Origin: Achromobacter denitrificans NBRC 15125
GTDB taxonomy: Bacteria > Pseudomonadota > Gammaproteobacteria > Burkholderiales > Burkholderiaceae_B
Direction of reading: 5' to 3'
Assembly (NCBI RefSeq): GCF_001571365.1
Contig: NZ_BCTQ01000012.1
Span: forward strand, 62,001-126,000
Length of the DNA: 64,000 nt
The position numbers were made by a program, and so were the translations under genes. Shown here in pieces: positions 41,080 to 64,000 of this stretch (position 1 is the first letter of the stretch; the number at the start of each line of letters is the position of its first letter). The notes under the pieces were generated by a model that was not told the DNA's origin, ran no database searches, and saw nothing but the letters and a program-made list of their open reading frames with translations.

Positions 41080-41757
41080 ATACGCTAAAATCAAGGGTTT
41101 TCCGCGGTGCGGACATTCCCACCGCGGATTTCTGATCCAAGGCGGCAGGCCGGCGGATTGTGGTGTTTACGGTTGATTGGCATTGGATTCGTGCTGAATT
41201 TGGTGGTAATCCTGGCACTGCGAGCGTTAGGCAAACGAGTTGGCAGTACGAATGCTTCGGCTGGCGGAATCTATTCCGGCTGCCGGAATCTAATTGATGT
41301 AGAGGTTTGGCGCGGCGCCCCGGGATGTCCTCCGGAAATAAAAACGGATGCGCGCGTCAAATTTGTTACATAGTTAATTTAATATAGCTGAGCGGTGAAT
41401 TCAGGCAGTTCGGCGGCGGTTATCTCCGTGTAGCGTTAGTGGTATGGGTGCTGTGTCTACTCAGCTGCTTTGGGCAAAGACCCGATAAGCAAGCAACGCC
41501 TATTTATAGGCAGGCAGCCCCCCCAACGCCCGGGATCCCCCGCAGGATGAGGCCACGCACGCCGAGCGCCACTACGGTCATGAACCGGAACGGCGCAAGG
41601 CGGGCTCGCAAGAGCCGGCGCTGCGAACAACGCAGCCGCGTGATTTCGGCCGGTTTCACCAGATTTACCCGTAGTACCGCCGCGCTGGGCAGCCGTCCAG
41701 GGTGGCTAAATGCGGTGCAACATGCCCAATCGGGTTGCGACGACCACGGAAGCGACT
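41080..41757 (+). other. dnaG-rpoD intergenic region
   Basis: 678 bases between dnaG and rpoD. It starts with the doubled TACGCTAAA and the stem-loop at 41101-41128, continues as AT-richer DNA (41140-41400) with the repeated GGAATCTA near 41269-41292, then returns to GC-rich sequence before rpoD. An 88-codon frame (41107-41373) has one hydrophobic run but begins inside the stem-loop and is not convincing. No promoter could be placed with confidence, though rpoD presumably has one here. Confidence 0.5.
41101..41132 (+). terminator. Probable terminator or attenuator after dnaG
   Basis: A 9-bp stem TCCGCGGTG (41101-41109) / CACCGCGGA (41120-41128) with a 10-base loop, followed by TTTCT. Moderate strength, so partial read-through into rpoD is possible. 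Confidence 0.5.
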
Positions 41758-44025
<2,268 letters not shown>

Positions 44026-44034: not shown

Positions 44035-44113
<79 letters not shown>

Positions 44114-47501: not shown

Positions 47502-48434
47502 CTACAATCCCATCGCCGTTTCCCAAGGCAGCTTGGGAGGCAGGGCCTCGGTCATGGCTTCGACGAAGGCGCGGATGCGCGGCGACAGGTGGCGGTTGGG
47601 GAGGTAGACCAGCTGCACAGGCGTGCCGGGGGCGATCCAGTCGGTCAGGATGAGTTTGAGGCGGCCGTCCAGCACCGCGGCTTCGGCGATGAAGCTGGCC
47701 ATGCGGGCGATGCCCGCGCCGGCCACCACGGCGTCCAGGATGGCTTCGGGGTGGTTGACGTTCAGGTTGCCCGCGGGGGTGATGGTGTAGCGCTCCTCGC
47801 CTTTCTGGAAGTCCCATTCGTGATACCGGCCGGTCTGCCATTGGACGTAGGCCAGGCAGTTGTGCCGTTCCAGGTCCGCGGGCGTGGCCGGGGTGCCGTG
47901 CGCGGCAAGGTAGGCGGGGCTGGCGCACGTGACGTAGCGCAACCGCGACAGGGTCTTGGCGATGACCCGCGAATCCGCCGTGACGCCGATCCGGATGGTG
48001 GCGTCCAGCCCTTCCTCGGCGAGGTTGGGCACGCGGTCGCTGAAATCGGAATTGATGGACAGGCCCGGGTAGCGCGCCGTCAGCGACAGCAGGGCCGGCA
48101 TGATGACTTTTCTTCCCATGCCCACGGGCGCATGCACGCGCAGTTTGCCGCGCGGGGTGAGGCTGGCGCCGGTGACTTCGGCTTCGGTGGCCTCGACTTC
48201 CAGCAGGATGAGGCGGCAACGCTGCAACAGCAGCTCGCCATCGTCGGTCAGTGACAGGCTGCGCGTGGTGCGGTTCAGCAGCTTCACACCCAGTTTGCCT
48301 TCCAGCAGGGACACGCTCTTGCTCACGGCGGCCGGCGATACCCCGAGGCGGTGCGCGGCGGCGGTGAAGCTGCCGCTGTCGGCGACACGCACGAAATTGA
48401 GGACATGCTTGAGATGGTCAATCAGTATGTACAT
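47502..48434 (-). CDS. LysR-family transcriptional regulator
   Basis: A 310-residue LTTR, divergent from the catabolic cluster it probably controls. The N-terminal winged helix (FVRVADSGSFTAAAHRLGVS, about residues 10-65) is followed by the ligand-binding domain (residues about 95-300). ATG 48434 begins MYILIDHLKHVLNF; an in-frame ATG at 48476 would add 14 residues. The 222-base region to the first cluster gene contains CGGATCCG at 48577-48584, a possible but unproven binding site. Confidence 0.88.
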   Translation of the reverse strand: MYILIDHLKHVLNFVRVADSGSFTAAAHRLGVSPAAVSKSVSLLEGKLGVKLLNRTTRSLSLTDDGELLLQRCRLILLEVEATEAEVTGASLTPRGKLRVHAPVGMGRKVIMPALLSLTARYPGLSINSDFSDRVPNLAEEGLDATIRIGVTADSRVIAKTLSRLRYVTCASPAYLAAHGTPATPADLERHNCLAYVQWQTGRYHEWDFQKGEERYTITPAGNLNVNHPEAILDAVVAGAGIARMASFIAEAAVLDGRLKLILTDWIAPGTPVQLVYLPNRHLSPRIRAFVEAMTEALPPKLPWETAMGL

Positions 48435-48656
48435 GGCGATCTGGCGCGGGAACCCACGCCATCTTAGCGATTCCATCGCAGAAAGTTAAAGGTGATTTGC
48501 CCTTGGGTCCGTTTATCTCTTGAATCCGCGTCCCTACACTGGCCCGCAGTGCTGAACGACCCTGGACGGTTGTTCGGATCCGCAAGGCGGCAAGCCGGAA
48601 TCCCCAGCCGATAGCGCAAGGGGCCGGACCGCCAGGCGAGACAACAGGAGACAAGG

Positions 48657-49058
48657 GTGGAGATGCAGAGCAAGGCACGGGCCGGGGTGGGGCCCGAGCA
48701 GGTTTATCTGGATGGCCTGGCGGCCGGCCGGTTCGAGATCCAGCGCTGCGTGGGCTGCGGCCACGCGGTGTTCTATCCGCGCTGGGTGTGCCCGCATTGC
48801 GGCGGCGCGGCGCTGGATTGGTTCGCGCCCTCGGGCGCCGGCGTGGTCTACGCCACCACCACCGTGGCCCGCAAGCCCGAGCAGGGCGGCGACTACAACG
48901 TGTGCCTGGTCGATCTGGAGGAAGGCGTGCGGATGATGAGCCAGGTGAGGGCGGTTGCGCCCGAGCATGTGCGCATCGGCATGCGCGTGCAGGCGCGCAT
49001 CGCCATGATCGGCGACGCGGCGCAGATCGTGTTCGAGCCCTCGGAGGTGGCGGCATGA
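48657..49058 (+). CDS. DUF35 zinc-ribbon/OB-fold protein, thiolase partner
   Basis: A 133-residue protein with a rubredoxin-like Zn ribbon (CVGCGHAVFYPRWVCPHCGG, four Cys) followed by an OB-fold (VVYATTTVARKPE, VCLVDLEEGVRMMSQV). DUF35 proteins accompany thiolase-fold enzymes, for example in steroid side-chain retro-aldolases and archaeal HMG-CoA synthesis, and hold the CoA end of the substrate. A GTG start at 48657 with CAGGAG 7 bases upstream is used; ATG 48663 is an alternative. The stop overlaps the thiolase gene (ATGA), supporting a complex. Confidence 0.87.
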   Translation: MEMQSKARAGVGPEQVYLDGLAAGRFEIQRCVGCGHAVFYPRWVCPHCGGAALDWFAPSGAGVVYATTTVARKPEQGGDYNVCLVDLEEGVRMMSQVRAVAPEHVRIGMRVQARIAMIGDAAQIVFEPSEVAA

Positions 49059-50227
49059 GCTTGCGCGATTTGCGTGGCCGCGCGGCCATCGTCGGCGTGG
49101 GGCAGGCCGGCCTGGGGCAGGCCCAGGGCTATACCGAGCAGGAAGTGCTGACGCAGGCGGCGATGGCCGCGATCGCGGACGCCGGCCTGAGCCTCAAGGA
49201 CATCGACGGCATTACGACCTGCAGTTCCCTGTCGCCCATGTGGGGCATGTCGGTCGTCGAGTATCTGGGCATCCGGCCCACGTTCCTGGACAGCACCATG
49301 ATAGGCGGGTCGAGCTACGTGGCGCACCTGCTGCCCGCGATGCATGCACTGGAATCGGGGCAGTGCAACGCCGTCCTGGTCTGCTACGGCAGCACCCAGC
49401 GCACGGCCAAGTTCAACCGGGCGGACCTGACCCGGGGGCGCAAGTTCCTGGATCCCCAGCCCTTCGAGACTCCCTACGATCCGCCCATGCCGGCGGCGGC
49501 CTACGCGTTGGCCGCCAGCCGCCACATGCACCAGTACGGCACCACGCGCAAGCAGCTGTCGGAGGTTGCCGTCGCGGCGCGCAAGTGGGCGCAGCTGAAC
49601 CCCGAGGCGACGATGCGGGACGCGCTGTCGCTGGAGGACGTGGCCAATGCGCGCCGCGTGTGCGATCCCTTCACGGTGCGCGATTGCTGCATGGTGAGCG
49701 ACGGCGCGGGCGCATTCGTGATGACCCGGGCGGACCGCGCGCGGGACTGCGCCAAGGCGCCGGTGTACGTGCTGGGCAATGCCACGGCCGTGTGGAACCG
49801 GCAGGTGTCGTCCATGCACGATCTGACGGTCACGGCCGCGCTGGAGTCCGGCCGGCGCTGCTACGAGATGGCCGGCGTGGGCGCTAAGGACATGGATCTG
49901 GCCATGCTGTACGACGCCTTCACGATCAATACCATTCTGTTCCTGGAGGACCTGGGGTTCTGCGAGAAGGGCGAGGGAGGCGCTTTCGTCGACGACGGCG
50001 CGATCGCGCCCGGCGGACGGCTGGCCGTCAATACCAACGGCGGCGGGCTGTCGTGCGTGCATCCGGGCATGTACGGCGTGTTCCTCATGGTCGAAGCGGT
50101 GCGGCAACTGCGCGGCGAGTGCGGCGAGCGCCAGCTGAACAGTCCGAGCCTGGCGCTGGTGCACGGCAACGGCGGCACCCTGTCCAGCCAGTCCACCGCG
50201 ATCCTCGGTACGCGGGACGCGCTGTAG
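49055..50227 (+). CDS. Thiolase-fold protein of SCP2/Ltp2 type, nucleophilic Cys absent
   Basis: A 390-residue thiolase-superfamily protein. The usual nucleophile segment (CxS/G) is replaced by GGSS (residues 84-87), so the Cys that starts Claisen chemistry is missing. The C-terminal catalytic region NTNGGGLSCVHPG (about residue 335) keeps the His. This combination, together with the adjacent DUF35 gene, resembles Ltp2-type retro-aldolases rather than true thiolases. It probably cleaves a beta-hydroxyacyl-CoA into an aldehyde or ketone plus acetyl- or propionyl-CoA. It starts in the previous stop codon. Confidence 0.85.
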   Translation: MSLRDLRGRAAIVGVGQAGLGQAQGYTEQEVLTQAAMAAIADAGLSLKDIDGITTCSSLSPMWGMSVVEYLGIRPTFLDSTMIGGSSYVAHLLPAMHALESGQCNAVLVCYGSTQRTAKFNRADLTRGRKFLDPQPFETPYDPPMPAAAYALAASRHMHQYGTTRKQLSEVAVAARKWAQLNPEATMRDALSLEDVANARRVCDPFTVRDCCMVSDGAGAFVMTRADRARDCAKAPVYVLGNATAVWNRQVSSMHDLTVTAALESGRRCYEMAGVGAKDMDLAMLYDAFTINTILFLEDLGFCEKGEGGAFVDDGAIAPGGRLAVNTNGGGLSCVHPGMYGVFLMVEAVRQLRGECGERQLNSPSLALVHGNGGTLSSQSTAILGTRDAL

Positions 50228-50259: not shown

Positions 50260-50946
50260 ATGTTGAACAAGATCGTGCCCTCGCTGGAGGACGCCGTCGC
50301 CGGCGTGGCGGACGGCGCCACGCTGCTGATCGGCGGCTTCGGGGCGTCGGGCGTGCCGACGGAACTGCTGCAGGCGCTGCTGGAGACGGGCGCCCGCGAG
50401 CTGACCATCGTCAACAACAACGCGGGCAACGGCGAAGCCGGCCTGAGCCAGCTGATCCGGGCCGGGCGCGTGCGGAAGGTGATCTGCTCTTTCGCGCGTT
50501 CGTCGAATCCGAAGAAGCCGAACGCGGCCGCGTTCGGGGAATGGTATGCCGCCGGCCGCATCGAGCTGGAGGTCGTGCCGCAGGGCACGCTGGCCGAGCG
50601 GCTGCGCGCCGCCGGCGCGGGCATCGGCCCGTTTTTCACGCCCACCGCGTACGGCACGCGGCTGGCGGAGGGAAAGGAAACCCGCAGCATCGACGGCCGC
50701 GGCTACGTGCTGGAAGCGCCGCTGCCGGGCGACGTGGCTTTCGTGAAGGCGCAGTACGGCGACCAGGCGGGCAATCTGACCTACCGCTACGCCAGCCGCA
50801 ATTTCGGGCCGGTGATGTGCATGGCCGCAAGGCTCGCCGTCGCGCAGGTCGACGAGATCGTGCCCTTGGGCAGTCTTGCGCCCGAGCACGTCATGACGCC
50901 GGGGATCTTCGTGCAACGCATCGTCGAGTGCCGCAATGCCAATTGA
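50260..50946 (+). CDS. 3-oxoacid CoA-transferase, subunit A
   Basis: A 228-residue family I CoA-transferase alpha subunit with the glycine loop IGGFGASGVPTELL (about residue 22) and the PTAYGT segment common to ScoA/PcaI/AtoD types. ATG 50260 follows GGAGG. It needs the beta subunit immediately downstream, with which it overlaps by 11 bases. It transfers CoA from succinyl- or acetyl-CoA to a carboxylic acid substrate; which acid is not evident. Confidence 0.92.
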   Translation: MLNKIVPSLEDAVAGVADGATLLIGGFGASGVPTELLQALLETGARELTIVNNNAGNGEAGLSQLIRAGRVRKVICSFARSSNPKKPNAAAFGEWYAAGRIELEVVPQGTLAERLRAAGAGIGPFFTPTAYGTRLAEGKETRSIDGRGYVLEAPLPGDVAFVKAQYGDQAGNLTYRYASRNFGPVMCMAARLAVAQVDEIVPLGSLAPEHVMTPGIFVQRIVECRNAN

Positions 50947-51604
50947 AACCTTATCGCGCGAACGCATGGCGCAGATCGTCGCCGGCGACATTCCGCCCGC
51001 GTCCTACGTCAACCTGGGCATCGGCATGCCGACCCTGGTGGCGGACTACCTGGCTTCCGACAGCGGCGTCGTGCTGCACAGCGAGAACGGCATCCTGGGC
51101 ATGAAGGGCCTGGCGCCCGGGCAGGAGATCGACGGGGACCTGCTCAATGCCAGCAAGGAACCGGTTGCGCTGGAGACCGGGGCGTCCATCACCGACCACG
51201 TGGTGTCGTTCGCCATGATGCGCGGCGGCCATATCGACCTGACCGTGCTGGGCGCGTTCCAGGTGTCGGCCGACGGCGACCTGGCCAACTGGGATACCGG
51301 GCGCGAGGACTCGATCCCCGCGGTGGGCGGAGCGATGGACCTGGTCGCGGGAGCCAGACGCATCTTCGTGATGATGCAGCACGTGGACCGCGACGGCCGG
51401 CCGAAGATCGTGCCGCAATGCAGCTATCCGCTCACCGGCAAGGGCGTGGTCGATCGCATCTACAGCGACCTCGCCATCATCGACGTGACGCCGGACGGGT
51501 TGCGCGTGCGGGCGATGGCGCGGGGGCTGGATTTCGCCACCCTGCAGGCGCGGACGGCGGTGGCCCTGACCCTGGACGATGCGTGGATCGAATTGGCGCC
51601 CTGA
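50936..51604 (+). CDS. 3-oxoacid CoA-transferase, subunit B
   Basis: A 222-residue beta subunit carrying the catalytic glutamate in SENGILG (E50) that forms the enzyme-CoA thioester, plus MRGGHIDLTVLGAFQV. Its start lies inside subunit A. It is the activating enzyme of the cluster: with subunit A it makes the acyl-CoA used by the carboxylase and beta-oxidation-like genes downstream. Confidence 0.93.
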   Translation: MPIETLSRERMAQIVAGDIPPASYVNLGIGMPTLVADYLASDSGVVLHSENGILGMKGLAPGQEIDGDLLNASKEPVALETGASITDHVVSFAMMRGGHIDLTVLGAFQVSADGDLANWDTGREDSIPAVGGAMDLVAGARRIFVMMQHVDRDGRPKIVPQCSYPLTGKGVVDRIYSDLAIIDVTPDGLRVRAMARGLDFATLQARTAVALTLDDAWIELAP

Positions 51605-51637: not shown

Positions 51638-53182
51638 ATGAGTTGGACTCACGAGTTGGAAGAACTGGAGCGCCGCAAGGAATACTCCCTGCGCATGGGC
51701 GGTCCGGAGAAGATCAAGCGCCAGCATGACGCGGGCAAGCTGGACATCCGCCAGCGCATCGGCCGGCTGGTCGACGGCGAGTCGTTCCTCGAAGTGGGGG
51801 GGCTGGCGGGCAGCGGCGAATACGACGAGCAGGGCCGGCTCACGAACGTGGTGCCGTCGAACGTGATCATGGGGCGCGCGACGCTCGACCGCAAGCCCGT
51901 GGTGGTGGTGGGAGACGACTTCACGGTGCGCGGCGGGGCGAACGACGGGGCGGTCGGCGACAAAATGATGTACGCCGAGCAGATGGCGTTCGACCTGCGC
52001 CTGCCCCTGGTGCGCCTGATCGACGGCACGGGCGGGGGCGGCTCGGTCAAGAACATCGAGAAAATGGGCCATGCCTTGCTGCCCAAGATGAAGATCTGGG
52101 CCTACGTGGCGCGCAACCTGACCCAGGTGCCCGTGGTGTCGCTGGCGCTGGGGTCGGTGGCCGGCCAGGGCGCGGCGCGGGTTGCCGGCAGCCATTATTC
52201 GGTGATGGTGAAGGACACCTCGCAGCTATTCATCGCGGGGCCGCCGGTGGTGGCCAAGATCGGCCAGCACCTGAGCAAGAACGAATTGGGCGGCAGCGGC
52301 ATCCACACGCGCAATGGGGTGGTGGACGACGAGGTGGATTCCGAGGACGAGGCGTTCCTGGCCGCCCGCCGCTTCCTGTCGTATCTGCCCGCGTCGGTGC
52401 ACGAGGTGGCGCCCCGGGGCGAGGTTCCCGCCGCCGCGGCCGACCAGGAGTGGCTGCGGACGGCGATACCGAAGGACACGCGCAAGGTCTACAAGATCCG
52501 GCCCATCCTGGACACCCTGTTCGATCCGGGCAGCGTGTTCGAGATCGGGCGGCATTGGGGCAAGGCGATCGTGGGCGGCCTGGCGCGGATCGACGGCTGG
52601 CCCGTGCTGTTCGCCGCCAGCAACCCCTATCACTACGGCGGCGGCTGGGACCGCCACACCGCCGAGAAATTCATCCGCCTGGTGGACCTGGCCGAAAACT
52701 TCCACCTGCCGGTGGTGAACATGGTGGACATCGCGGGCTTCCAGATCGGCCTGGAAGCCGAGAAGGACGGCGTGATGCGCGCCGGTGTGCGCGCCTTGAC
52801 CGCCGTGTCGCAATCCACGGTGCCGTGGTTCTCCCTCATCATGCGGCGGGCCTTCGGGGTTGCCGCGGGCGGCCACCAGAATTCCAGCCGCTTCAACTTC
52901 CGCTACGCCTGGCCGTCGGCCCAATGGGGATCGCTGCCCATCGAAGGCGGGCTGGAGGTCGCGTACCGCTCCGAGATCGAAGCGGCGGACGACCCGGAGG
53001 CCAAGCGTGCGGAGATCGAAGCGCGGGTGCGCAGCCTGACGTCGCCGTTCCGCAGCGCCGAGGCGTTCGTGATCGAGGACATCATCGATCCGGCGTCCAC
53101 GCGGGCGCGGCTGGTGGAGTTCGCCAATCTGGCGGCGCCGCTGCGCCGGCCGGGCCTGGTGGCCACGGGATACCGGCCCTGA
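51638..53182 (+). CDS. Acyl-CoA carboxylase carboxyltransferase subunit
   Basis: A 514-residue carboxyltransferase (PccB/MccB class) with two crotonase-like halves. Oxyanion-type Gly-rich loops lie in the first half (GTGGGGSVKN, about residue 130) and second half (FGVAAGGHQN). ATG 51638 with TTGGAGG 7 bases upstream is used. It transfers CO2 from carboxybiotin to an acyl-CoA; substrate (propionyl-, methylcrotonyl-, or other) cannot be told. The biotin carboxylase and biotinyl genes follow as separate proteins. Confidence 0.92.
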   Translation: MSWTHELEELERRKEYSLRMGGPEKIKRQHDAGKLDIRQRIGRLVDGESFLEVGGLAGSGEYDEQGRLTNVVPSNVIMGRATLDRKPVVVVGDDFTVRGGANDGAVGDKMMYAEQMAFDLRLPLVRLIDGTGGGGSVKNIEKMGHALLPKMKIWAYVARNLTQVPVVSLALGSVAGQGAARVAGSHYSVMVKDTSQLFIAGPPVVAKIGQHLSKNELGGSGIHTRNGVVDDEVDSEDEAFLAARRFLSYLPASVHEVAPRGEVPAAAADQEWLRTAIPKDTRKVYKIRPILDTLFDPGSVFEIGRHWGKAIVGGLARIDGWPVLFAASNPYHYGGGWDRHTAEKFIRLVDLAENFHLPVVNMVDIAGFQIGLEAEKDGVMRAGVRALTAVSQSTVPWFSLIMRRAFGVAAGGHQNSSRFNFRYAWPSAQWGSLPIEGGLEVAYRSEIEAADDPEAKRAEIEARVRSLTSPFRSAEAFVIEDIIDPASTRARLVEFANLAAPLRRPGLVATGYRP

Positions 53183-53192: not shown

Positions 53193-54560
53193 ATGAAAAA
53201 AATACTGATCGCCAATCGCGGGGCAGCGGCCGCGCGCATCCTGCGCGCCGTGAAGGCGCTGGGCCTGCAGTCCGTCGCGGTCTACTCCGAGGCCGACGCC
53301 GACCTGCCTTATGTGGGGCGGGCCGACGAGAGCGTCTGCATCGGCCCGGCGGCCGCCCGCGACAGCTATCTCAACCAGGATGCGCTGCTCGACGCCATGG
53401 CGCGCTGCGGGGCCGATGCGCTGCATCCGGGCTATGGCTTCCTGTCGGAGAACGCGCAGTTCGCCCGCCGCGTCGAATCGGCCGGGCACTGCTTCATCGG
53501 GCCGTCTCCCAAATGGATCGACGCGCTGGGCAACAAGGCGGCGGCGCGCGCCTTGATGCAGCGGCACGGGCTGCCCGCGGGCGGCAGCACGGCCATCCTG
53601 CCTCGCGACGACCTGGAGGCCGTCTGCCGCGCCGCCGAGGCCCTGGGATTCCCGGTGCTGATCAAGCCGGCGGGCGGCGGAGGCGGCATCGGCATGGTTC
53701 CGGTGGAGGACGTCCGCTCCCTGCCGGGCAGCTGGGAGCGCGCCAGCGGCATGGCCGAGAAAGCGTTCGGCGATGCTTCCCTGTACCTGGAGCGGTTCAT
53801 CCAGGCGCCGCGCCACATTGAATTCCAGTTCCTGGCGGATCGCTACGGGAACGTCCTGTCGTTGTTCGAGCGGGATTGCTCCACGCAGCGCCGCTACCAG
53901 AAGGTGATCGAAGAGGCGCCCGCGCCCGCCATCGACCGCAAGGCCGTGGCGGCCATGGCGGACCGGCTGTCGGCGATCCTGGGCGAGATCGGCTACGACG
54001 TGATCGGCACGGTGGAGATGCTCTACACGCCGGACGGCGGCTTCTCCTTCCTGGAGGTCAACACGCGGTTGCAGGTGGAGCACGCGATCTCCGAGGCCGT
54101 GACCGGCGTGGACATCGTGCAGGCCCAGATCCGCCTGGCCGCGGGCGAGACGCTGGCCTCGGTCGCGGGGAAAAGGCCGGCGCTGCGGGGGCACGCGATC
54201 GAAGCGCGCGTCTACGCGGAGGACCCGGTGCGCTTTCTGCCGTCGCCGGGCGTGCTGAAGACGTTCGACCTGCCGGGCGCCCGGCCCGGCCTGAGGGTGG
54301 AGACCGGCTATGCCGCCGGGAACCGGGTTTCCAGTCACTACGATCCGATGGTCGCGAAGATCATCGCGCATGCCGATACCCGCGAGGGCGCCACGCGCGC
54401 GTTGATCGAGGCCTTGGGCGACACCCGGGTGGAAGGCATCAAGACCAATATTCCGATGATTCTGCAGGTGCTCAAGTCCGAGCGGTTCCAGGCGGGCGCG
54501 ATGACCGTGGACGGCTTGCAGGCATTGATATCAACCGAGGCGACAAAGGAGCGAGCATGA
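53193..54560 (+). CDS. Biotin carboxylase subunit
   Basis: A 455-residue AccC-type ATP-grasp protein. It starts KKILIANRGAAAARILRAVKA; the Gly-rich ATP loop is PAGGGGGIGMV (about residue 160), and ERDCSTQRRYQKVIEEAP and EVNTRLQVEHAISE are the bicarbonate and biotin-handling motifs. It ends without a BCCP domain. The start is 11 bases after the carboxyltransferase. It carboxylates the biotin on the 70-residue protein encoded next. Confidence 0.95.
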   Translation: MKKILIANRGAAAARILRAVKALGLQSVAVYSEADADLPYVGRADESVCIGPAAARDSYLNQDALLDAMARCGADALHPGYGFLSENAQFARRVESAGHCFIGPSPKWIDALGNKAAARALMQRHGLPAGGSTAILPRDDLEAVCRAAEALGFPVLIKPAGGGGGIGMVPVEDVRSLPGSWERASGMAEKAFGDASLYLERFIQAPRHIEFQFLADRYGNVLSLFERDCSTQRRYQKVIEEAPAPAIDRKAVAAMADRLSAILGEIGYDVIGTVEMLYTPDGGFSFLEVNTRLQVEHAISEAVTGVDIVQAQIRLAAGETLASVAGKRPALRGHAIEARVYAEDPVRFLPSPGVLKTFDLPGARPGLRVETGYAAGNRVSSHYDPMVAKIIAHADTREGATRALIEALGDTRVEGIKTNIPMILQVLKSERFQAGAMTVDGLQALISTEATKERA

Positions 54561-54769
54561 AGAAGATTGTGTCGAGCGTGGCGGGCCGCGTCGTGGCTTG
54601 TTGCGTGGAGGAGGGAGCGCAGGTCGGGCCGGGCGACGAGGCGTTCAAGGTCGAGTCCATGAAAATGGAGATTCCCGTCGAAAGTGAAGCAAGCGGCCGT
54701 ATCGCCAGGGTCCTGGTGGCGGTTGGAGACGAGGTGGAAGAAGGGCAGGAGCTCGCGCTGCTGGACTAA
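54557..54769 (+). CDS. Free biotinyl carrier domain protein
   Basis: A 70-residue stand-alone biotinyl domain with the ESMKME motif (biotin on K36) and the two half-motif beta hammerhead (VVACCVEEGAQVGPGD, IARVLVAVGDEVEEGQ). Its start overlaps the biotin carboxylase stop. Usual acyl-CoA carboxylases fuse this domain to the carboxylase or to a longer BCCP; here it is minimal and separate, without an N-terminal arm. Confidence 0.93.
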   Translation: MKKIVSSVAGRVVACCVEEGAQVGPGDEAFKVESMKMEIPVESEASGRIARVLVAVGDEVEEGQELALLD

Positions 54770-54809: not shown

Positions 54810-55838
54810 ATGCACAAAACGACTAACAGCGACGCGCCCGCATTCCTGGCGCGAAAGAGCCCCCTGAAAGCCTTGGCGATCCTGGGATTGGCGGCGGTGC
54901 TGGGCAGCGCGAGCGTGGCCAGCGCCCAAGGCGCGCAGGGCTATCCCGGCAAGCCGGTCACCATCAACGTCCCGTTCTCGGCCGGCGGCACCACCGACAT
55001 CCTGGCGCGCGTGATCGGCCAGCGGCTGAGCGAGCGCTGGGGTGTATCCGTGGTGGTCGAGAACAAGCCGGGCGCCGGCGGCAACATCGGCACCGCGCAG
55101 GTTGCGCGCGCGGCGCCGGACGGCTACACGCTGGTGATGGGCACGATCGGCACCCATGCCATCAATCCCAGCCTGTACAAGTCCATGCCGTACGACGCCA
55201 TCAAGGACTTCGCGCCCATCACCCGCACGGCCATGGTGCCCAACGCGCTGGTGGTGCCCAAGGACGCGCCGTACAACACCGTCAAGGAGCTGATCGCCTA
55301 CGGCAAGAGCCATCCGGGCAAGCTCACCTTCGGGTCGTCCGGCCATGGCAGCACGCTCCATATGTCGGGCGAGACCTTCAAGATGATGACCGGCGTGGAC
55401 ATGGTGCACGTTCCCTACAAGGGCAGCACTCCCGCGGTGACCGACCTGCTGGGCGGGCAGATCTCCATGATCTTCGACAACCTGCCTTCGGCGCTGCCGC
55501 ACATCAAGGGAGGGCGCCTGAAGGTCCTGGCGGTGACCTCGGCGCAGCGCAGCGAGCAGTTGCCCGACGTGCCCACGGTGGCGGAGGCCGGCGTGCCCGG
55601 CTACGAGGTCGTTTCGTGGTTCGGCCTGTGGGCGCCGGCCAAGACGCCGGACGCGATCGTGACGGAGATCAACAAGCAGGTGGTCGACATCATCCAGACG
55701 CCCGACATGCAGAAGCAGATCCGCGATCAGGGGGCGGTTCCCCAGCCGGACTCGCCCGCGGAGTTCGCCGCCTTCATCGGCAGCGAAGGCAAGAAGTGGG
55801 CGGAAGTGGTGCGCCGCGCCAACGTAACGACCGAGTAG
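54810..55838 (+). CDS. Bug-family periplasmic solute-binding protein
   Basis: A 342-residue tripartite-tricarboxylate-transporter type binding protein with a long signal peptide (cut near ASVASAQ, about residue 40). Family motifs PGKPVTINVPFSAGGTTDIL, GANIGTAQVARAAPDGYTL (as GGNIGTAQVARAAPDGYTL) and VPYKGSTPAVTDLLGGQI are present. It binds a carboxylate, presumably the pathway's substrate. TctA/TctB membrane genes are not in the window, as usual for orphan Bug genes in Alcaligenaceae. Confidence 0.92.
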   Translation: MHKTTNSDAPAFLARKSPLKALAILGLAAVLGSASVASAQGAQGYPGKPVTINVPFSAGGTTDILARVIGQRLSERWGVSVVVENKPGAGGNIGTAQVARAAPDGYTLVMGTIGTHAINPSLYKSMPYDAIKDFAPITRTAMVPNALVVPKDAPYNTVKELIAYGKSHPGKLTFGSSGHGSTLHMSGETFKMMTGVDMVHVPYKGSTPAVTDLLGGQISMIFDNLPSALPHIKGGRLKVLAVTSAQRSEQLPDVPTVAEAGVPGYEVVSWFGLWAPAKTPDAIVTEINKQVVDIIQTPDMQKQIRDQGAVPQPDSPAEFAAFIGSEGKKWAEVVRRANVTTE

Positions 55839-55871: not shown

Positions 55872-56801
55872 ATGGAACGCATGATGGAAGGCAAGGTGGT
55901 GGTGGTGACCGGCGCGGGCGGCGGTATCGGCCGCGAGGTCGCGCTGCAATTGGCGGCGCAAGGCGCGAAGGTGGTGGTCAACGATATCGGCGTCGCGCTC
56001 AATGGCGACAACCTGTCGGCCGACGAGGCGCCGGTGGCGCCGGCCGACGCGGTCGTCGCCGAGATCCGCGCGGCGGGCGGCATGGCGGTCGCGAATTTCG
56101 ATTCGGTGGCGACGCATGCGTCGGCCAATGCCATCATCCAGTGCGCCATGGACGAGTTCGGACGCATCGATGGCGTGGTCAACAACGCCGGCAATCTGCG
56201 CGACCGCTCGTTCCACAAGATGAGCGAAGACGAGTGGCGCTCGGTGATCGCCGTCCACCTCGACGGCACGTTCTTCGTGAGCCGGTCGGCGGCCGCGCAT
56301 TTCCGCGAGCAGGAGGGCGGGGCGATGGTCCACATGACCTCCACCTCCGGCCTGATCGGCAATTACGGACAGGCCAACTACGGCGCGGCCAAGCTGGGCA
56401 TCGTGGCGTTGTCCAAGATGATCGCGCTGGACATGGGGCGGTACAACGTGCGCTCCAATTGCATCGCGCCCTCGGCCTGGAGCCGCATGACCAGCTCCAT
56501 TCCCACCGATACGCCGCAGCAGCGGGACCGTGTCGAAAAGCTGAAGAAAATGGAAGCGGGAAAGATCGCGCCCATGGCCGTGTACCTGCTCAGCGATGCC
56601 GCGCGCGAGGTAAGCGGGCAGATCTTCGCGGTGCGCGCCAACGAGATCATGCTGATGAGCCAGCCGCGCCCCCTGCGCTCAGTGCATTTCAGCGAGGGCT
56701 GGACGCCGCAGCGCATCGCTGAGATCGCGATTCCGGCGATGCAGAAGCACTTCTATCCGCTGGAGCGCTCGCCGGACGTGATGAGCTGGGATCCGATCTG
56801 A
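55872..56801 (+). CDS. SDR-family 3-hydroxyacyl-CoA dehydrogenase-like protein (MFE-2 type)
   Basis: A 309-residue short-chain dehydrogenase. The NAD(P)-binding TGAGGGIG is at residues 13-20, NNAG at about 104, and the catalytic Ser157-Tyr170-Lys174 set in TSTSGLIGNYGQANYGAAK. A C-terminal extension of about 50 residues is characteristic of the dehydrogenase domain of multifunctional enzyme type 2. Together with the following MaoC-like hydratase it can do hydration and oxidation of an enoyl-CoA. It is preceded by GAGGAGAGG. Confidence 0.9.
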   Translation: MERMMEGKVVVVTGAGGGIGREVALQLAAQGAKVVVNDIGVALNGDNLSADEAPVAPADAVVAEIRAAGGMAVANFDSVATHASANAIIQCAMDEFGRIDGVVNNAGNLRDRSFHKMSEDEWRSVIAVHLDGTFFVSRSAAAHFREQEGGAMVHMTSTSGLIGNYGQANYGAAKLGIVALSKMIALDMGRYNVRSNCIAPSAWSRMTSSIPTDTPQQRDRVEKLKKMEAGKIAPMAVYLLSDAAREVSGQIFAVRANEIMLMSQPRPLRSVHFSEGWTPQRIAEIAIPAMQKHFYPLERSPDVMSWDPI

Positions 56802-56853: not shown

Positions 56854-57705
56854 ATGCGCTTGAGCTACGAGCAATTGCTGAATTACGAGCTGCCGGAAGT
56901 CAGGCAGCGCTACACCGCGCGCGACACGATGCTGTACGCCTTGTCGATCGGGCTGGGGCAGGACCCGCTGGACTTGACCGACCTGGCGCACGTGGGCAGA
57001 CAGCACGATCCGCTCGCGTTGCCGTGGATGGCCGTGGTGCTGGGCTATCCGGGGTTCTGGCTCAAGGCGCCGGAAATCGGCGCCGACACGGTGAGGCTGC
57101 TGCACGGCGAGCAGGGGATGGAGCTCTTCCATCCGATTCCGCCCGAAGGCGAACTGGCAGGCAAGACCCGGGTCGTCGAAGTCGTGGACAAGGGTGAAAA
57201 GGGCCTGCTGCTGTATTCGGAAAAGACCTTGACGGAGGCGGCGTCGGGACGCCTCGTCGCGCGGACCTTCGCCACCCACGTCCTGCGCGGCGACGGCGGC
57301 ATGCCGGGAGCCGGAAAGCAGGCGCGGACCGCGCATGCCGTGCCCGAGTCCGCGCCGCATTGGGCCGTGCCGTTGAACACCCGGCCCGAACAGGCGCTGG
57401 TCTATCGTCTCAACGGCGACTACAACCCCCTGCATAGCGATCCCGAGGTGGCGAGGGCGGCGGGTTTCCCGCGGCCCATCCTGCACGGCCTGTGCACGTT
57501 CGGCATGGTGTCGCAGGCCGTGTTCAGGCAGTTGCAGTCCGCGGCCGGCGGCGGCTCCCTGCGGTCGCTGGCGCTGCGCCTGTCGGGGCCGGTGTTCCCC
57601 GGCGAGACGCTGCGGGTGGAGGCCTGGCGGGACGGCTCCTTCCGGGCGCGCGTCGTAGAGCGCGACGCGCTGGTGATCGACAACGGCCTGATGCGGATCG
57701 CCTGA
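56854..57705 (+). CDS. MaoC-family enoyl-CoA hydratase 2-like protein
   Basis: A 283-residue double hot-dog hydratase. The N-terminal hot dog lacks the motif and the C-terminal one carries YRLNGDYNPLHSDPE, with the hydratase-2 catalytic Asp189 and His194, followed by GFPRPILHGLCT. This is the architecture of peroxisomal/bacterial (R)-specific hydratase 2. It starts 52 bases after the SDR gene, and the two correspond to separated MFE-2 halves. Confidence 0.92.
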   Translation: MRLSYEQLLNYELPEVRQRYTARDTMLYALSIGLGQDPLDLTDLAHVGRQHDPLALPWMAVVLGYPGFWLKAPEIGADTVRLLHGEQGMELFHPIPPEGELAGKTRVVEVVDKGEKGLLLYSEKTLTEAASGRLVARTFATHVLRGDGGMPGAGKQARTAHAVPESAPHWAVPLNTRPEQALVYRLNGDYNPLHSDPEVARAAGFPRPILHGLCTFGMVSQAVFRQLQSAAGGGSLRSLALRLSGPVFPGETLRVEAWRDGSFRARVVERDALVIDNGLMRIA

Positions 57706-59551: not shown

Positions 59552-59818
59552 ATGTCGGGGTATCGGAAACGTCAGTTGGGCCAGGGCATGACAGAGTACA
59601 TCGTGGTCGTGGCGCTGGTGGCCGTGGCGGCCATTGCGGTGTATCAGTACTTTGGCCAGGTGGTGCGGTCGCAGACCGCGGCCATGGCGCGTGAACTCGC
59701 CGGGGAAGACGGCGGCAACGAAGCGCGCGCGGCGCAGCAGGCGGCGAAAAAAGCGGCCGCGCAGACCAAGGCCCGTTCGCTCAAGTCCTTTACCGGCAAC
59801 GCCGCGGACGCGAAGTGA
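59552..59818 (+). CDS. Flp-like prepilin of a Tad-type locus
   Basis: An 88-residue protein with the Flp prepilin layout: a 10-residue basic leader ending G10, then QGMTEY with Glu at +5 and Tyr at +6 (G/xxxxEY), and a hydrophobic helix IVVVALVAVAAIAVYQYF. The C-terminal half is rich in Ala/Lys/Gln (AAQQAAKKAAAQTKAR), longer and more basic than most Flp pilins. It should be cut by TadV. It overlaps the next gene by 4 bases (GTGA). Confidence 0.85.
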   Translation: MSGYRKRQLGQGMTEYIVVVALVAVAAIAVYQYFGQVVRSQTAAMARELAGEDGGNEARAAQQAAKKAAAQTKARSLKSFTGNAADAK

Positions 59819-61233
59819 GCACGCCCGCAAGCGCGTCCTTGCATCGCCAGCATGGGCAGGCGCTGGCGCTGGGTCTGCTGATGGCGTCGGTCGCGGCCGC
59901 GTCCCTGATCGTCCTCTACAACCTGGGGCAGACCGTGGAGTCGCGGGCGCGGCTCACGCACGCCGCCGACGCCGCCGCCTACAGCGGCGCGCTGGAACAG
60001 GCGCGCGCGCTCAATGCGCTGGCCTATGTCAACCGCACGCAGATCGCTCACCAGGTCGCCATGGCGCACCTCGTCACGCTGGCGGCATCCGCGCAGTACG
60101 CGCGCACGATGCAGGCACAGCGTGCGCGCGGCAATCCGCCGGCGGGCCTGATCGCCATGCTGTTCGGGCCGGACATGGGGCTGGCCTATCAGGCGGCGCA
60201 AACCGTGCCCGGCGCCGAACAGCAGCTGGCAGCCGCATTCGGCCAGCACGACCGTATCGTCCGCCAGGTGCTGGAGGCCGCCGCGGCCGCCGCCGTCGCG
60301 GAACTTGCCGCGTCGCGCGAGCGCATCATGCGCAAGGTGCTGTCCGTCAATTTTCCGGAGGCGGTCGCCGGCAGCGCTCGCAAAGGCGCGTGGCGGCAAG
60401 GTCCGGTGCTGCGCGTGCTGTCGGACGGCTGGCCCGGCTACGTCGAACGCCGCCTCGCCACGCGCCAGGCCGGCCTTCGGCCCGCCGTCGAGCAGGCCGC
60501 GGGGCGCTACGGTTTTCTCGATAGCCGCAGCGCCACGCGCCGCAATGGTTGGATGGTCAGCCCGCGCTGCCCTTTGCATCGGCATGAACTGCGCCGCCGC
60601 GGATCCACCTGGCTCGGCCCCGACGGCCGCTGGGGTGCCCTGGACACGCAGTCCTACCATGCCCTGCGCTCGAACCGGTGGATCGGCTGCTACTACCGGG
60701 AATACGCCATGGGGTGGGGCACGGCGCAAGGCGAGAAAAGCCAGGCGCCGGAATGGGTGGATTACGTGGAGGAACCCCCTCTCGATTTCTCCCAGCAAGA
60801 CTTCTGGCGTTGGGTCGAACAGTCCACCTCGTGGGATATTTTCAGCGGCGCGACCAATCCCCTGGCCAACTCCTATGCCATGGCCGGCGCGCAGCGTTGG
60901 CCCGCCGGCGGTTTACCCGCGTATCGCGAGGTCGCGCTGGCGCGTCATCGCGACCCGCTGCGTTTCGCCGTGGCGGTCAGGCTCCCCGGCGCTGCCTTGA
61001 AAACCACGGACGCGGACGGCCCGGTCGCGGGGCCCATGGGCCGTTTCAGCTATGCGGCATTGGGCCGGTCCGGCAGCGTCCACGTGATGTCGGCCGCCGA
61101 AACCTACTTCGCCAGGCCCGAGCGCCGGGCCGATGGGCAGGGCGAGCTGGCCACGCTTTTCCGGCCGTATTGGCAGGCGCGATTGTCCGCCGTTACACCG
61201 CAGGAAGCGGCCCGGGCCAAGGAGGCGCCATGA
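59815..61233 (+). CDS. TadG-like pilus-locus protein
   Basis: A 472-residue protein from GTG 59815 (overlapping the pilin stop). A basic N-terminus HRQHGQ precedes a single hydrophobic helix ALALGLLMASVAAASLIVLY, then a TadE/G-like segment THAADAAAYSGALEQARALN. The large remaining periplasmic domain (Trp- and Arg-rich; DFSQQDFWRWVEQST near residue 325) is not recognisable. TadG proteins act with TadE in Flp pilus assembly. The +5 Glu is absent, so it is probably not a processed pilin. Confidence 0.78.
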   Translation: MSTPASASLHRQHGQALALGLLMASVAAASLIVLYNLGQTVESRARLTHAADAAAYSGALEQARALNALAYVNRTQIAHQVAMAHLVTLAASAQYARTMQAQRARGNPPAGLIAMLFGPDMGLAYQAAQTVPGAEQQLAAAFGQHDRIVRQVLEAAAAAAVAELAASRERIMRKVLSVNFPEAVAGSARKGAWRQGPVLRVLSDGWPGYVERRLATRQAGLRPAVEQAAGRYGFLDSRSATRRNGWMVSPRCPLHRHELRRRGSTWLGPDGRWGALDTQSYHALRSNRWIGCYYREYAMGWGTAQGEKSQAPEWVDYVEEPPLDFSQQDFWRWVEQSTSWDIFSGATNPLANSYAMAGAQRWPAGGLPAYREVALARHRDPLRFAVAVRLPGAALKTTDADGPVAGPMGRFSYAALGRSGSVHVMSAAETYFARPERRADGQGELATLFRPYWQARLSAVTPQEAARAKEAP

Positions 61234-61844
61234 GTCCGCTCGCGTCGCGGCAGCGCGGCCAGGCCGTGGTCGAAGCGCTGCTGATGCTGCCGCTGCTCGC
61301 CGTGCTGGCATGGGCGGTGGCGCGTATCGGCGGGCTGCAATTCTCGGCCCAGGAAATGGCGCAGGTCAGCCGCAAGGCCGTGATGGCCGCCGCCTTGGGG
61401 CAGCCGCTCGAAGACCTGGCCGCGATGAAGACGGGCACGACGCTGGCCGTCGGCGCCAGGCCGCTCGCCGGGGTGGCGCCACCGCGAGTGTCCGCCTTGC
61501 AGGATGCCTGGTTCGGCGCGGGCCTGCGGCTCTTGTCGGTGGAGGCCGGCGTGGCGCGCCAGGCGGGGCCGGAGCCCTTGCGCGTCACCCGCCAGACCCA
61601 CGTGGCCGGCGGCGCGGGGCATGCCTCTGGCGATGCCGACGCGCAGCGCCGCATCGCGCAGGCGCGGGAACCCTGGCGGCGGGCCGAAGCGGATTCGCTG
61701 GCCCAGGCCCGGCGCCTGGATCGTCTCATCGACAGGCTGGACGGCCCCTGGCGCCGGCCGCGGCTGTCGCTGGATTGGCTATCGGCCTGGAAAGACGTGG
61801 TGCCCGCCGACAGGCTGGGCGCGCGCGGGGAGCAACGCAAGTGA
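61230..61844 (+). CDS. TadE-like pseudopilin
   Basis: A 204-residue protein with RQRG10|QAVVEA, the TadE-type site with Glu at +5, and helix LLMLPLLAVLAWAVARI. The C-terminal part is Ala/Arg-rich and helical (AQARRLDRLIDRLDGPWRR). ATG 61230 lies in the stop of the TadG-like gene. It is likely to be processed by the TadV peptidase and to aid pilus assembly or stability. Confidence 0.8.
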   Translation: MSPLASRQRGQAVVEALLMLPLLAVLAWAVARIGGLQFSAQEMAQVSRKAVMAAALGQPLEDLAAMKTGTTLAVGARPLAGVAPPRVSALQDAWFGAGLRLLSVEAGVARQAGPEPLRVTRQTHVAGGAGHASGDADAQRRIAQAREPWRRAEADSLAQARRLDRLIDRLDGPWRRPRLSLDWLSAWKDVVPADRLGARGEQRK

Positions 61845-62608
61845 ATGCATCGCCTTCATCTCTTTCATCTTCTATGCGCGCAGGCCGCGCCGGCGCGTTG
61901 CCGGGCCGGCGTGCCCGGGCCGCCGCGCAGGCAGCGCCCCTGTGGCTGACCGGCGTGCTCGCGTGCCTGGCCGGCGCGTGGCCCGGCTCGGCCTGGGGCC
62001 AGGCGCTACCTGCGTCCGGGCAGGGCCCCGTCACGCTGGCGGCGCTGCGCCTTCCTCCCGGATCCCGGCATGAGCGGTTGGGAGAAAGCGTGTGGCTGCA
62101 CGGCATGCCGGCCCAGGTGCTGGTGTTCGACGCGCCCCAGGGCATCGCGGAACTGATCCGCTTTCTTTCCAACCAGCAGCCGGCGCTGGCCGACCTGAAT
62201 ATCCTGCCGGGCCAGGCGATCCTGTCCGGCCGGGTGGGGCACGAGCAATGGGTCGTCCAGATGGAAGCCCTGGGGCCGCGCCGCACGGTGGGCAGCGTTT
62301 CCTCGGCCAGTCCCGGAGCCTGGGCCGAGCGGCCCGGGCCGTCCTGGCTGCCCGCGGGCGGGCGGCTCAGGCTGGATATCGCCGTGCAGGACCAGGGCGC
62401 CACGGTCACGGAACGCATCTGGCAGTACGAGCTGCCGCCCGAGCGCGTGGCGCCGCGGCTGGAAGCGGGCCTGGAGCGCGACGGGTGGCGGCGCCCGCCG
62501 TCCCAGGACGGGCCGCCGTGGTGGACACGCGGGCAGGCGCGCCTGCGCATTTCCCTGGTGCCGCTGGAGGCGGGCAGCGGCTTGCTGGTCAGCGGGTGGG
62601 CGCCATGA
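61841..62608 (+). CDS. Unrecognised exported protein of the Tad-type locus
   Basis: A 255-residue protein from GTG 61841, coupled to the TadE-like gene (GTGA) and to cpaB (ATGA at 62605). An Arg-rich N-terminus and a hydrophobic signal (TGVLACLAGAWPGSAWGQALP, about residues 37-57) indicate export. The mature part contains repeated beta-strand patterns (HGMPAQVLVFDAP, LNILPGQAILSGRVG) and a final ISLVPLEAGSGLLVSGW. No family can be named. In canonical tad loci nothing of this kind stands between TadE and CpaB, so it may be a lineage-specific component. Confidence 0.72.
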   Translation: MNASPSSLSSSMRAGRAGALPGRRARAAAQAAPLWLTGVLACLAGAWPGSAWGQALPASGQGPVTLAALRLPPGSRHERLGESVWLHGMPAQVLVFDAPQGIAELIRFLSNQQPALADLNILPGQAILSGRVGHEQWVVQMEALGPRRTVGSVSSASPGAWAERPGPSWLPAGGRLRLDIAVQDQGATVTERIWQYELPPERVAPRLEAGLERDGWRRPPSQDGPPWWTRGQARLRISLVPLEAGSGLLVSGWAP

Positions 62609-63462
62609 GGGCCACGATCACCCAGGCCGCGCTGCGGCTGCGCCGAACCGGCGTGTATGCCTTGGCGTTGGCGGCCGGGCTGGTGTCCGCGTGGGCGGTG
62701 CGCGAGCATGTGCAGCAGCGGATCCAGGTGCTGGAGGCCGAGGCGCGCGTGCCCATGGTCAGTCGGCTGGTCGCCGCGTATGAATTGCCCGCGGGCACGC
62801 AACTCGACGAGTCGCATCTGGCGGTGCGCGACATCCCCGAGCAATGGGCCTCCCGCGCCAGCATCGATCCGCTGGACCTGGCGTCCGTGCTGGGCGCCAC
62901 CCTGCAGGCCGATGTCGCCAACGGCGAACCCTTGCTTCGCGCCCATCTGACGTTCAACGCGCCGGCACCGGCGCTTGCATCCCGCCTGCAGGCCGGGCAG
63001 CGCGCATTGACCGTGGCCGCCTCCGACCTGGGCGGACTCGGCGAGATGCTGCGCGTGGGCGACGCCATCGACATCTACGCGAGCTTCTCGCACCGGCAGC
63101 GGGAGCTGACGGTGCCGGTGCTGCAAGGCATGCGCGTGCTGGCCGTCGGCGGCGAGGCCGCCAGCGAAGGCCGCGGCGCCGGCAACATCACGCTGGCCGC
63201 CAGCCCCGACGAAGCCATGCGCTTCGTGGCGGCGCGCCAGGCCGGCGCGCTCACGGCCTTGCTGCGCCATCGCGATGACTCGGCGGCGGTCGGTCGCAAG
63301 GCGCAGAGCGATCTCGCTTCGCTGATCGGCCTGGATCCGGAGCCCAAGGCCGCGCCGGGCGTGGCCATCCTCTACGGCGACAGGCTGGATGGGGCCGAAG
63401 GCGCCGCCTGGCGCGATGCTTCCGGCGCGCGCCTTGCAGGCATCCAAGGGGAACGGCCATGA
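62605..63462 (+). CDS. cpaB: CpaB/RcpC-type Flp pilus assembly protein
   Basis: A 285-residue protein with an N-terminal membrane anchor (about residues 15-33, GVYALALAAGLVSAWAV), a SAF-like domain (VSRLVAAYELPAGTQLDESHL, residues about 52-90) and the later RcpC beta region (GDAIDIYASF, GNITLAASP). CpaB/RcpC is associated with the secretin. It overlaps the upstream unknown gene and the secretin gene by 4 bases each. Confidence 0.9.
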   Translation: MRATITQAALRLRRTGVYALALAAGLVSAWAVREHVQQRIQVLEAEARVPMVSRLVAAYELPAGTQLDESHLAVRDIPEQWASRASIDPLDLASVLGATLQADVANGEPLLRAHLTFNAPAPALASRLQAGQRALTVAASDLGGLGEMLRVGDAIDIYASFSHRQRELTVPVLQGMRVLAVGGEAASEGRGAGNITLAASPDEAMRFVAARQAGALTALLRHRDDSAAVGRKAQSDLASLIGLDPEPKAAPGVAILYGDRLDGAEGAAWRDASGARLAGIQGERP

Positions 63463-64000
63463 TCGCCCGCCTCGTTGCGCTGTTGCTGGCCGGCCTGGCG
63501 GCATGCCTGGCGGGCGTGTCGGCGCAGGCGGCCGAAGCGATCGAACTCCAGGTGGGCGAAACGCGGATCCTGTCGCATCCGGGCGTGCGGCGGGTGGCCA
63601 TCGGCAACGGCCAGGTGCTCGGGGCGGTGGCGGCCGAAGGCCGCGAAGTGGTGGTGTTCGCTCGCGCCGAGGGCGTGTCTTCGCTGCATGTCTGGACGGG
63701 GGCGGGCCGGCCCCAGGCCTACGAACTGCGGGTCGTGCCGGCCGGCGCGCCGCGCCTGCGGGCCGAGGTGCAGGCCCTGCTGGCGCGCATTCCGGGCGCG
63801 CGCAGCGCCGAGGTGGGCGGGCGCATCCTGATCGAGGGCGACGATCTCTCCGACGACGACCGCGCCCGGATCGCGGCCCTGGCCGAACGCTATCCGGCGG
63901 TGTTGGATTTCACCGGGCAGGTGGGCTGGGACCGCATGGTGCTGCTGGACGTGCAGGTCGTTGAGATTCCCACCTCCAGGTTGAGGGAGATGGGCGTGCG
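63459..64000 (+). CDS. cpaC: CpaC/RcpA-type secretin, N-terminal part (3' end outside window)
   Basis: The first 180 residues of a secretin: signal peptide (LVALLLAGLAACLAGVSAQA), then the N-terminal pilus-secretin domain with IELQVGETRILSHPGVRRVAIGNG and VVVFARAEGVSSLHVW, and a BON-like segment (LRAEVQALLARIPGARSAEVGGRILIEG). It ends at DVQVVEIPTSRLREMGV, the start of the secretin N1 repeat. The frame runs out of the window. It forms the outer-membrane pore for the Flp pilus. Confidence 0.88.
   Translation, partial: MIARLVALLLAGLAACLAGVSAQAAEAIELQVGETRILSHPGVRRVAIGNGQVLGAVAAEGREVVVFARAEGVSSLHVWTGAGRPQAYELRVVPAGAPRLRAEVQALLARIPGARSAEVGGRILIEGDDLSDDDRARIAALAERYPAVLDFTGQVGWDRMVLLDVQVVEIPTSRLREMGV

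Follow-up and report, generated by a model that had tools for sequence, protein, structure and literature searches.

A DUF35-partnered, cysteine-less thiolase-fold protein of Achromobacter denitrificans as a predicted acyl-CoA retro-aldolase outside the Ltp2 and Sal clades

Two thiolase-fold proteins with a DUF35 partner, Ltp2-ChsH2 (PDB 6ok1) and Sal-Shy (9myr), are retro-aldolases of coenzyme A (CoA) esters; according to passages of PMC12329534, Ltp2 cleaves the steroid C3 side chain and Sal the bile-acid C5 side chain. The pair IpfD/IpfE of Rhizorhabdus wittichii plasmid pIBU218 belongs to ibuprofen catabolism. Parts of PMC9195938 describe the ibuprofen step as a retro-aldolase cleavage while elsewhere the ipfDE product is termed a thiolase, and they report an ipfD insertion mutant unable to grow on ibuprofen, for which a polar effect is possible; a passage of PMC11347016 names IpfDE, labelled a thiolase, as the enzyme giving isobutylcatechol and propionyl-CoA. 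The putative thiolase 4u4e of Sphaerobacter thermophilus is known by structure only, and a full-text search for that entry found no paper on it. Here we analyse a gene pair encoding a DUF35 protein and a thiolase-fold protein (the query) in A. denitrificans NBRC 15125, within a window of 64,000 nucleotides (contig NZ_BCTQ01000012.1, positions 62,001 to 126,000 of the forward strand; coordinates below are those of the window). From its residues and modelled fold, the assignment of the query as aldolase-like and non-thiolytic is well supported, and we predict that the pair probably cleaves a beta-hydroxyacyl-CoA by retro-aldol chemistry. No study or measured activity for the clade of the query was found in the literature searched, which mostly leaves out subscription papers.

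The DUF35 gene (48663..49058, + strand) starts at GTG 48657 or ATG 48663 and stops with a TGA ending at 49058. Its zinc ribbon zf-ChsH2 and its OB_ChsH2_C domain both exceed the Pfam cut-off, its zinc-type cysteines 29, 32, 43 and 46 have the spacing C-x2-C-x10-C-x2-C, and its PDB relatives are 9myr_B, 6ok1_B, 6htj_A and 6esq_E; we annotate it on these grounds as the predicted partner of the aldolase-like protein. The query gene (49055..50227, + strand, ATG to TAG, 390 residues) overlaps it by the four bases ATGA, so that the zinc ribbon/OB protein joined by ATGA to a thiolase-fold gene, as the initial annotation had it, is confirmed by two open reading frames, their Pfam domains and the overlap. 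The query matches Thiolase_C_1 in Pfam with 229.7 bits and the NCBIfam family NF004811 (PRK06158), described as 'acetyl-CoA acetyltransferase', with 652.5 bits (curated cut-off 421). IpfD scores 287.4 bits on NF004811, under its cut-off.

For the active site, we aligned the query with 4u4e, Sal, Ltp2, the archaeal thiolase 6esq, and IpfD translated from pIBU218. The strongest evidence, on which the initial annotation was silent, is the thiolase motif HDCF, which reads YDAF in the query, with Tyr286 at the position of the His and Ala288 at that of the Cys. In the column of Tyr286 stand the base residues of Ltp2 (Tyr294) and Sal (Tyr302), which makes Tyr286 the putative aldolase base. The GGSS read earlier in place of the nucleophilic Cys is where it was said to be, Gly85 aligning with the nucleophilic Cys of 6esq, and the HPG His is indeed kept: His336 corresponds to the His of the GHP motif of thiolases. 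Ltp2 Tyr344 falls in column 336. For Sal, columns 286 and 336 hold residues 326 and 376 of the 9myr chain, which an offset of 24 converts to Tyr302 and Gln352 of the paper, and the equivalence of Ltp2 Tyr344 and Sal Gln352 given in a passage of PMC12329534 is recovered by our alignment. In columns 286, 288 and 336, Ltp2 has Tyr/His/Tyr, Sal Tyr/Cys/Gln, IpfD Tyr/Ala/Tyr and the query Tyr/Ala/His; the base Tyr is thus common to all, and the other positions differ. With Gly85 included, the query agrees with the IpfD pattern Gly/Tyr/Ala/Tyr at the first three positions and departs from it at the fourth. All 116 relatives at or above 50% identity carry Gly85 and Tyr286, and 115 of them His336, so that these residues are not due to chance. 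Compared with an SCP2-type thiolase or acetyl-CoA acetyltransferase, the query lacks the nucleophilic Cys and both the His and the Cys of HDCF, and has the GHP His. It has both residues that mark the broad Ltp2/Sal/IpfD kind, a Gly at the nucleophile position and a Tyr at the position of the HDCF His.

The two diagnostic residues change together. We aligned 146 rows picked by similarity to the query, many of them close kin and one a second copy of IpfD, with BbsB excluded; there, Cys occurs only with His (14 rows) and Gly only with Tyr (132 rows). A survey of the phylum finds Gly/Tyr at all 30 loci, which as the best NF004811 matches are biased to the kind and of which four repeat proteins already counted, leaving 26 new ones; the companion residues are Ala/His in 20, Ser/His in 7, Cys/Gln in 2 (Sal-like) and His/Tyr in 1 (Ltp2-like). 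In a tree of 65 rows, the 55 Gly/Tyr and the 10 Cys/His proteins occupy opposite sides of one branch supported at 100/100; Ltp2, Sal and IpfD fall among the Gly/Tyr proteins. The query clusters with its homologues at loci L139 and L074 at 100/100, separate from Ltp2 and Sal, and Ltp2 pairs with L256, also at 100/100, outside the query clade. IpfD is a long branch of uncertain placement, and the deep Gly/Tyr branching order is not resolved in the trees, from which BbsB was left out and in the second of which the proteins of this genome are trimmed to their last 430 residues, their start sites not being called. In the phylogeny with Ltp2 and SCP2 thiolases that had been proposed, the query sits on the side of Ltp2, away from the Cys/His proteins, but in a clade separate from it, and the label 'Ltp2-type' has to be dropped, the residues beside the base Tyr being different as well. 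Judged by sequence, the query belongs to a clade of its own, widespread and distinct from both Ltp2 and Sal. Of 300 genomes from the order, 57 hold a relative at E 1e-60 or better, 133 of 72,556 plasmid records carry a relative at E 1e-60, and of 299 genomes from the phylum 13 have an NF004811 match above the cut-off.

An AlphaFold2 model built from 27 sequences (mean predicted local distance difference test score, pLDDT, 82.9; predicted template modelling score 0.88) places the query with the same group. The top Foldseek ranks are 4u4e, 9myr and 6ok1, and the VIA-align Z scores of 4u4e (48.4), Sal (9myr, 48.2) and Ltp2 (6ok1, 48.0) are tied, with root-mean-square deviations of 1.9-2.2 over 350-365 residues. 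Scores are lower for 6esq (46.1), TbSLP (45.4) and BbsB (42.7), and about 33 for classic thiolases. The top match 4u4e is 49% identical to the query over 371 columns and, like it, has Gly for Cys, a Tyr (in YDSF) and the retained His; it differs in a Ser at the position of Ala288 and in having no Cys at 334 or 335. Ltp2 (32% identity) shares the fold, the DUF35 partner, the Gly, the base Tyr and the C4 zinc spacing, but it has YDHF and the second catalytic Tyr344 where the query has YDAF and His336. Sal (34% identity) likewise shares fold, partner, Gly and base Tyr, but has YDCY, with Cys304 and Gln352, and the zinc finger of Shy is C3H1 (according to a passage of PMC12329534), unlike the C4 spacing of the DUF35 protein here. 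IpfD (36.7% identity) agrees in the Gly, in YDAF, in a DUF35-type partner and, as predicted for the query, in serving the catabolism of a non-steroid acid; Tyr342 stands where the query has His336, IpfE is by inspection without zinc cysteines, and the neighbours of IpfD include no carboxylase. More distant are the benzoylsuccinyl-CoA thiolase BbsAB (7pxp) and the archaeal thiolase/HMG-CoA synthase complex (6esq), which have the thiolase fold and a DUF35 partner but the His of HDAF or HDCF instead of the Tyr, 6esq also retaining the nucleophilic Cys.

The partner gene follows the same division within this genome. There are 16 PF22691 matches, of which 15 could be read as proteins, ten Gly/Tyr and five Cys/His; the remaining match (C9:9653, E 1.3e-4) yielded no protein with the probes used and was dropped. 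The genome has ten DUF35 (PF01796) matches, and by their coordinates these adjoin exactly the ten Gly/Tyr genes and none of the five Cys/His genes. The ten pairs lie on contigs C4, C8, C9, C11, C12, C17, C22, C24, C26 and C38, and each is a candidate CoA aldolase. The rule holds for this genome and is not a general one, because DUF35 elsewhere serves Cys thiolases, as in the 6esq complex and in BbsAB, which we take to have a nucleophilic Cys. We also collected 80 related genome-contig loci, 55 of them with nearly full flanks and many of them near-copies. In 78 of these, DUF35 is matched at 40% identity or more; the two without such a match are L154, where the contig ends at the gene, and L216, whose flanks are complete. 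All four zinc-type cysteines are retained in 137 of 157 DUF35 matches, some of which are repeats of one gene, and 20 do not keep all four. Most or all of these cysteines are gone at loci including L056, L057, L078, L083, L084, L228, L230 and L234-L238, where DUF35 still adjoins an aldolase-like gene. A Hydrogenophaga plasmid (L082) carries in one gene run two different Gly/Tyr thiolase-fold genes (6760-8316 and 9528-11101), each accompanied by an OB-fold/DUF35 gene of its own. On two Rhodobacterales plasmids, a protein of 477 or 474 residues without a Pfam match (L078:14888-16321, L083:14884-16308) ends the same-strand run that holds DUF35 and the aldolase-like gene.

The pair opens a run of ten genes on the + strand, the rest of which the initial annotation left unmentioned; the run reaches 57705, and its intergenic distances range from -11 to 52 bases. 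After the pair come subunits A (50260..50946; TIGR02429, 344.3 bits, cut-off 128.5) and B (50936..51604; TIGR02428, 256 bits, cut-off 243.55) of a 3-oxoacid CoA-transferase, and then an acyl-CoA carboxylase made of a carboxyltransferase subunit (51638..53182; PF01039), a biotin carboxylase (53193..54560; PF00289, PF02786, PF02785) and a biotin carboxyl carrier protein of 70 residues (54557..54769; PF00364). These are followed by a TctC/Bug periplasmic binding protein for carboxylate uptake (54810..55838; PF03401, 267.5 bits), a short-chain dehydrogenase/reductase (SDR) of the MFE-2 / 17beta-HSD4 kind (55872..56801) and an enoyl-CoA hydratase of the MaoC / hydratase-2 kind (56854..57705; PF22622 and PF01575; PDB 3khp, 7mku, 1s9c). 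The best PDB hit of the SDR (2et6, 343 bits) is a (3R)-hydroxyacyl-CoA dehydrogenase, and its sequence has the Ser and the YxxxK that we take to be the motif of the family; the MaoC protein has GDYNPLH, presumably the hydratase-2 motif. A LysR-type regulator, identified as an open reading frame, diverges from the operon (47502..48476, - strand). A promoter scan gave no match, with 0.8 expected.

The ten-gene set recurs at seven other loci, one a Diaphorobacter plasmid (L074) and six genome contigs (L137-L142) from two Achromobacter, Noviherbaspirillum, Acidovorax, Bordetella petrii and an Alcaligenaceae bacterium; the closest protein match is 95%, in Achromobacter sp. RTa. An additional TctC gene follows the pair in L074, L140 and L141. 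A LysR homologue of at least 57% identity lies beside the operon in L074, L137, L138, L139, L141 and L142, on the operon strand in L074 and L139. Elsewhere in the window, a tRNA-Met (CAT) at 44035-44113 lies just after an rpoD-like gene (41710-44025, by inspection) and before short open reading frames, and Tad/Flp pilus assembly-like genes, again by inspection, occupy 59815-63998.

In the retro-aldol reaction that we favour, a beta-hydroxyacyl-CoA would be held by the thiolase-fold subunit, and Tyr286 would remove the proton of its beta-hydroxyl group, so that the C2-C3 bond opens to give an acyl-CoA enolate and an aldehyde or ketone. The enolate would be protonated, most likely by His336 and perhaps aided by Cys334, and the DUF35 subunit would complete the active site and the substrate pocket. 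As for the rest of the operon, TctC and the CoA-transferase would serve uptake and activation, MaoC would supply the beta-hydroxyacyl-CoA, and the biotin carboxylase would handle the released or an intermediate acyl-CoA. The initial annotation had proposed retro-aldol cleavage of a branched beta-hydroxyacyl-CoA; its aldolase part agrees with the active site and the fold, and 'branched' rests on nothing specific. The substrate is probably not a steroid, to judge by the context. KshA_C (PF19298), the sole steroid marker that we tested by family, has no match in the genome (among 14 control genomes it gave a signal, below the cut-off, in one), and a steroid role was rejected on this basis. The operon neighbours are acyl-CoA genes, and the non-steroid setting claimed for the pair agrees with both observations; it is not new in kind, because the ibuprofen case of IpfDE is already in print. 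Two matches to the extradiol dioxygenase bphC of pIBU218 (27% and 24%) are too weak to be used either way.

Several observations speak against a retro-aldolase, chief among them the MFE-2-like dehydrogenase of the operon, which is superfluous for retro-aldol cleavage. Such an SDR is near the pair in 50 of the 80 loci, and in a second operon form (L151, L166, L186), made of a carboxylase, the pair and a CoA-transferase, a FadB-like hydratase/dehydrogenase replaces it. The presence of an SDR or a FadB-like protein with the pair suggests that the substrate may be a 3-ketoacyl-CoA and not a 3-hydroxyacyl-CoA. The active site adds three more points: Ala288 takes the place of the Ltp2 His and the Sal Cys, the latter (Cys304) being essential according to a passage of PMC12329534; the thiolase His persists as His336; and a Cys at 334 or 335, beside His336, is present in 114/116 relatives of at least 50% identity. 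The model does not establish the geometry of the active site, because the pLDDT of residues 336-338 is below 50.

On the dehydrogenase one could base a cysteine-free retro-Claisen cleavage, which we consider unlikely: MaoC and the SDR (or FadB) would make a 3-ketoacyl-CoA, water or CoA would cleave it with the help of Tyr286 and His336 and with no acyl-enzyme formed, and the CoA-transferase would re-activate the acid. The SDR counts, the FadB-like protein that replaces both SDR and MaoC in the second operon form, the CoA-transferase genes at 16 of the 80 loci and the kept His all suit it; MaoC itself is near the pair in 23 of 80. On the other hand, wherever a reaction has been described for a Gly/Tyr member (Ltp2, Sal and the ibuprofen step) it is a retro-aldol cleavage, and we know of no thiolase-fold hydrolase of the retro-Claisen kind. 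Moreover, three plasmid operons, L079 and L085 (Rhodobacterales) and L082 (Hydrogenophaga), combine the pair with genes for acyl-CoA dehydrogenase and hydratase and show no match to an SDR or to the dehydrogenase part of FadB, their FadB matches spanning the hydratase part only. Six other plasmid loci were tested; five have an SDR match and L080 has an SDR by annotation, missed by the probe. Thiolysis may in some loci fall to another enzyme than the pair, as at least 11 of the 80 loci have a Cys/His SCP2-type thiolase no more than 10 kb from it and five have an acetoacetyl-type thiolase homologue near it (counted by homology, whatever its Cys). The first count comes from the aligned Cys rows (14 including 6esq, 11 in the 80 loci) and is a lower bound because rows of 340 residues or less were dropped.

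The Cys beside His336 suggests another reading, a true thiolase with a relocated nucleophile, which we find very improbable despite its 114 of 116 close relatives. The Cys shifts between 334 and 335, and it is absent from two of the 116 (L055 and L039), from 4u4e and from 9 of the 30 Gly/Tyr phylum loci (L231, L238, L240-L246), all of them Gly/Tyr and without the HDCF His. Cys334/335 is therefore not an obligate nucleophile, and we rejected it in that role; a helper role is possible. The initial annotation had also said that another Cys at the nucleophile position would overturn it; the absence of Cys334/335 from these proteins speaks against such a takeover.

The carboxylase of the operon bears on further readings. 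Its carboxyltransferase has as nearest solved chains an annotated methylmalonyl-CoA decarboxylase and acetyl-CoA and propionyl-CoA carboxylases (235 to 224 bits), against 164 bits for a bacterial methylcrotonyl-CoA carboxylase (MCC) beta subunit and 104 bits for geranyl-CoA carboxylase. An HMG-CoA-lyase-like reading, suggested by a gene list that resembles leucine breakdown (carboxylase, hydratase, C-C lyase, 3-oxoacid CoA-transferase), was set aside as no more than an idea: the carboxyltransferase is nearer the acetyl/propionyl type, the SDR would have no place, and seven matches in the genome are HMGL-like. Of the 80 loci, 10 have a carboxyltransferase of at least 55% identity close to the pair. 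Conversely, among 20 of 45 matches listed for loci centred on the carboxyltransferase (one only 46% identical, three incomplete), the SDR and the pair occur in 1/20 each. We rejected on these counts the carboxylase as part of every such pathway. Could the query act on the carboxylase product, as a decarboxylase or enolase of a malonyl-type CoA? The shared operon invites the question, and passages of PMC12329534 say that TbSLP, described as a relative devoid of the thiolase Cys residues, weakly decarboxylates malonyl-CoA and that Sal has no such activity. Carboxylase and decarboxylase together would be futile, and just those 10 loci have the carboxyltransferase near the pair; we regard this reading as improbable, slightly more so than the next. 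A third operon form (L117) combines the carboxylase, an apparent ADP-forming CoA ligase (by inspection) and the pair, with no hydratase or dehydrogenase in the gene run. This arrangement of activation, carboxylase and pair, and the reversibility of aldol reactions, would fit a forward aldol synthase, in which an aldehyde or ketone would be attacked by an acyl-CoA enolate, with dehydration of the product by MaoC and its carboxylation to follow. The genes for uptake (TctC) and CoA activation point instead to catabolism and the characterised relatives cleave, so that synthesis seems improbable and cleavage the likelier direction. The carboxylase-operon relatives L118 and L119 are without the pair; they hold TctC, carboxyltransferase, ADP-forming CoA ligase, biotin carboxylase, carrier and a PaaI-like thioesterase, and a sigma-54-type regulator faces the operon (ligase, thioesterase and regulator labelled by inspection).

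Retro-aldol cleavage remains our preferred reading of the pair. A wider proposal is more tentative, and we lean somewhat against it: Tyr286 and His336, with Ala at the position of the Ltp2 His and the Sal Cys, might form a third aldolase active site, that of a large family, named thiolase or acetyl-CoA acetyltransferase in databases, that replaces thiolysis by aldol cleavage in the ordinary acyl-CoA degradation of environmental proteobacteria. This genome would have ten DUF35 pairs of the wider class, and here the site would be coupled to a biotin-dependent acyl-CoA carboxylase in one operon. If this is true, proteins called 'thiolase' or 'acetyl-CoA acetyltransferase' could be sorted by two residues, Cys/His for thiolysis and Gly/Tyr for aldol chemistry, and the annotation of a large family would be corrected. 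Aldol cleavage of CoA esters would then reach far beyond steroids and ibuprofen, new CoA aldolases could become available as biocatalysts, and the ten-gene operon would offer a small, testable pathway for some acid.

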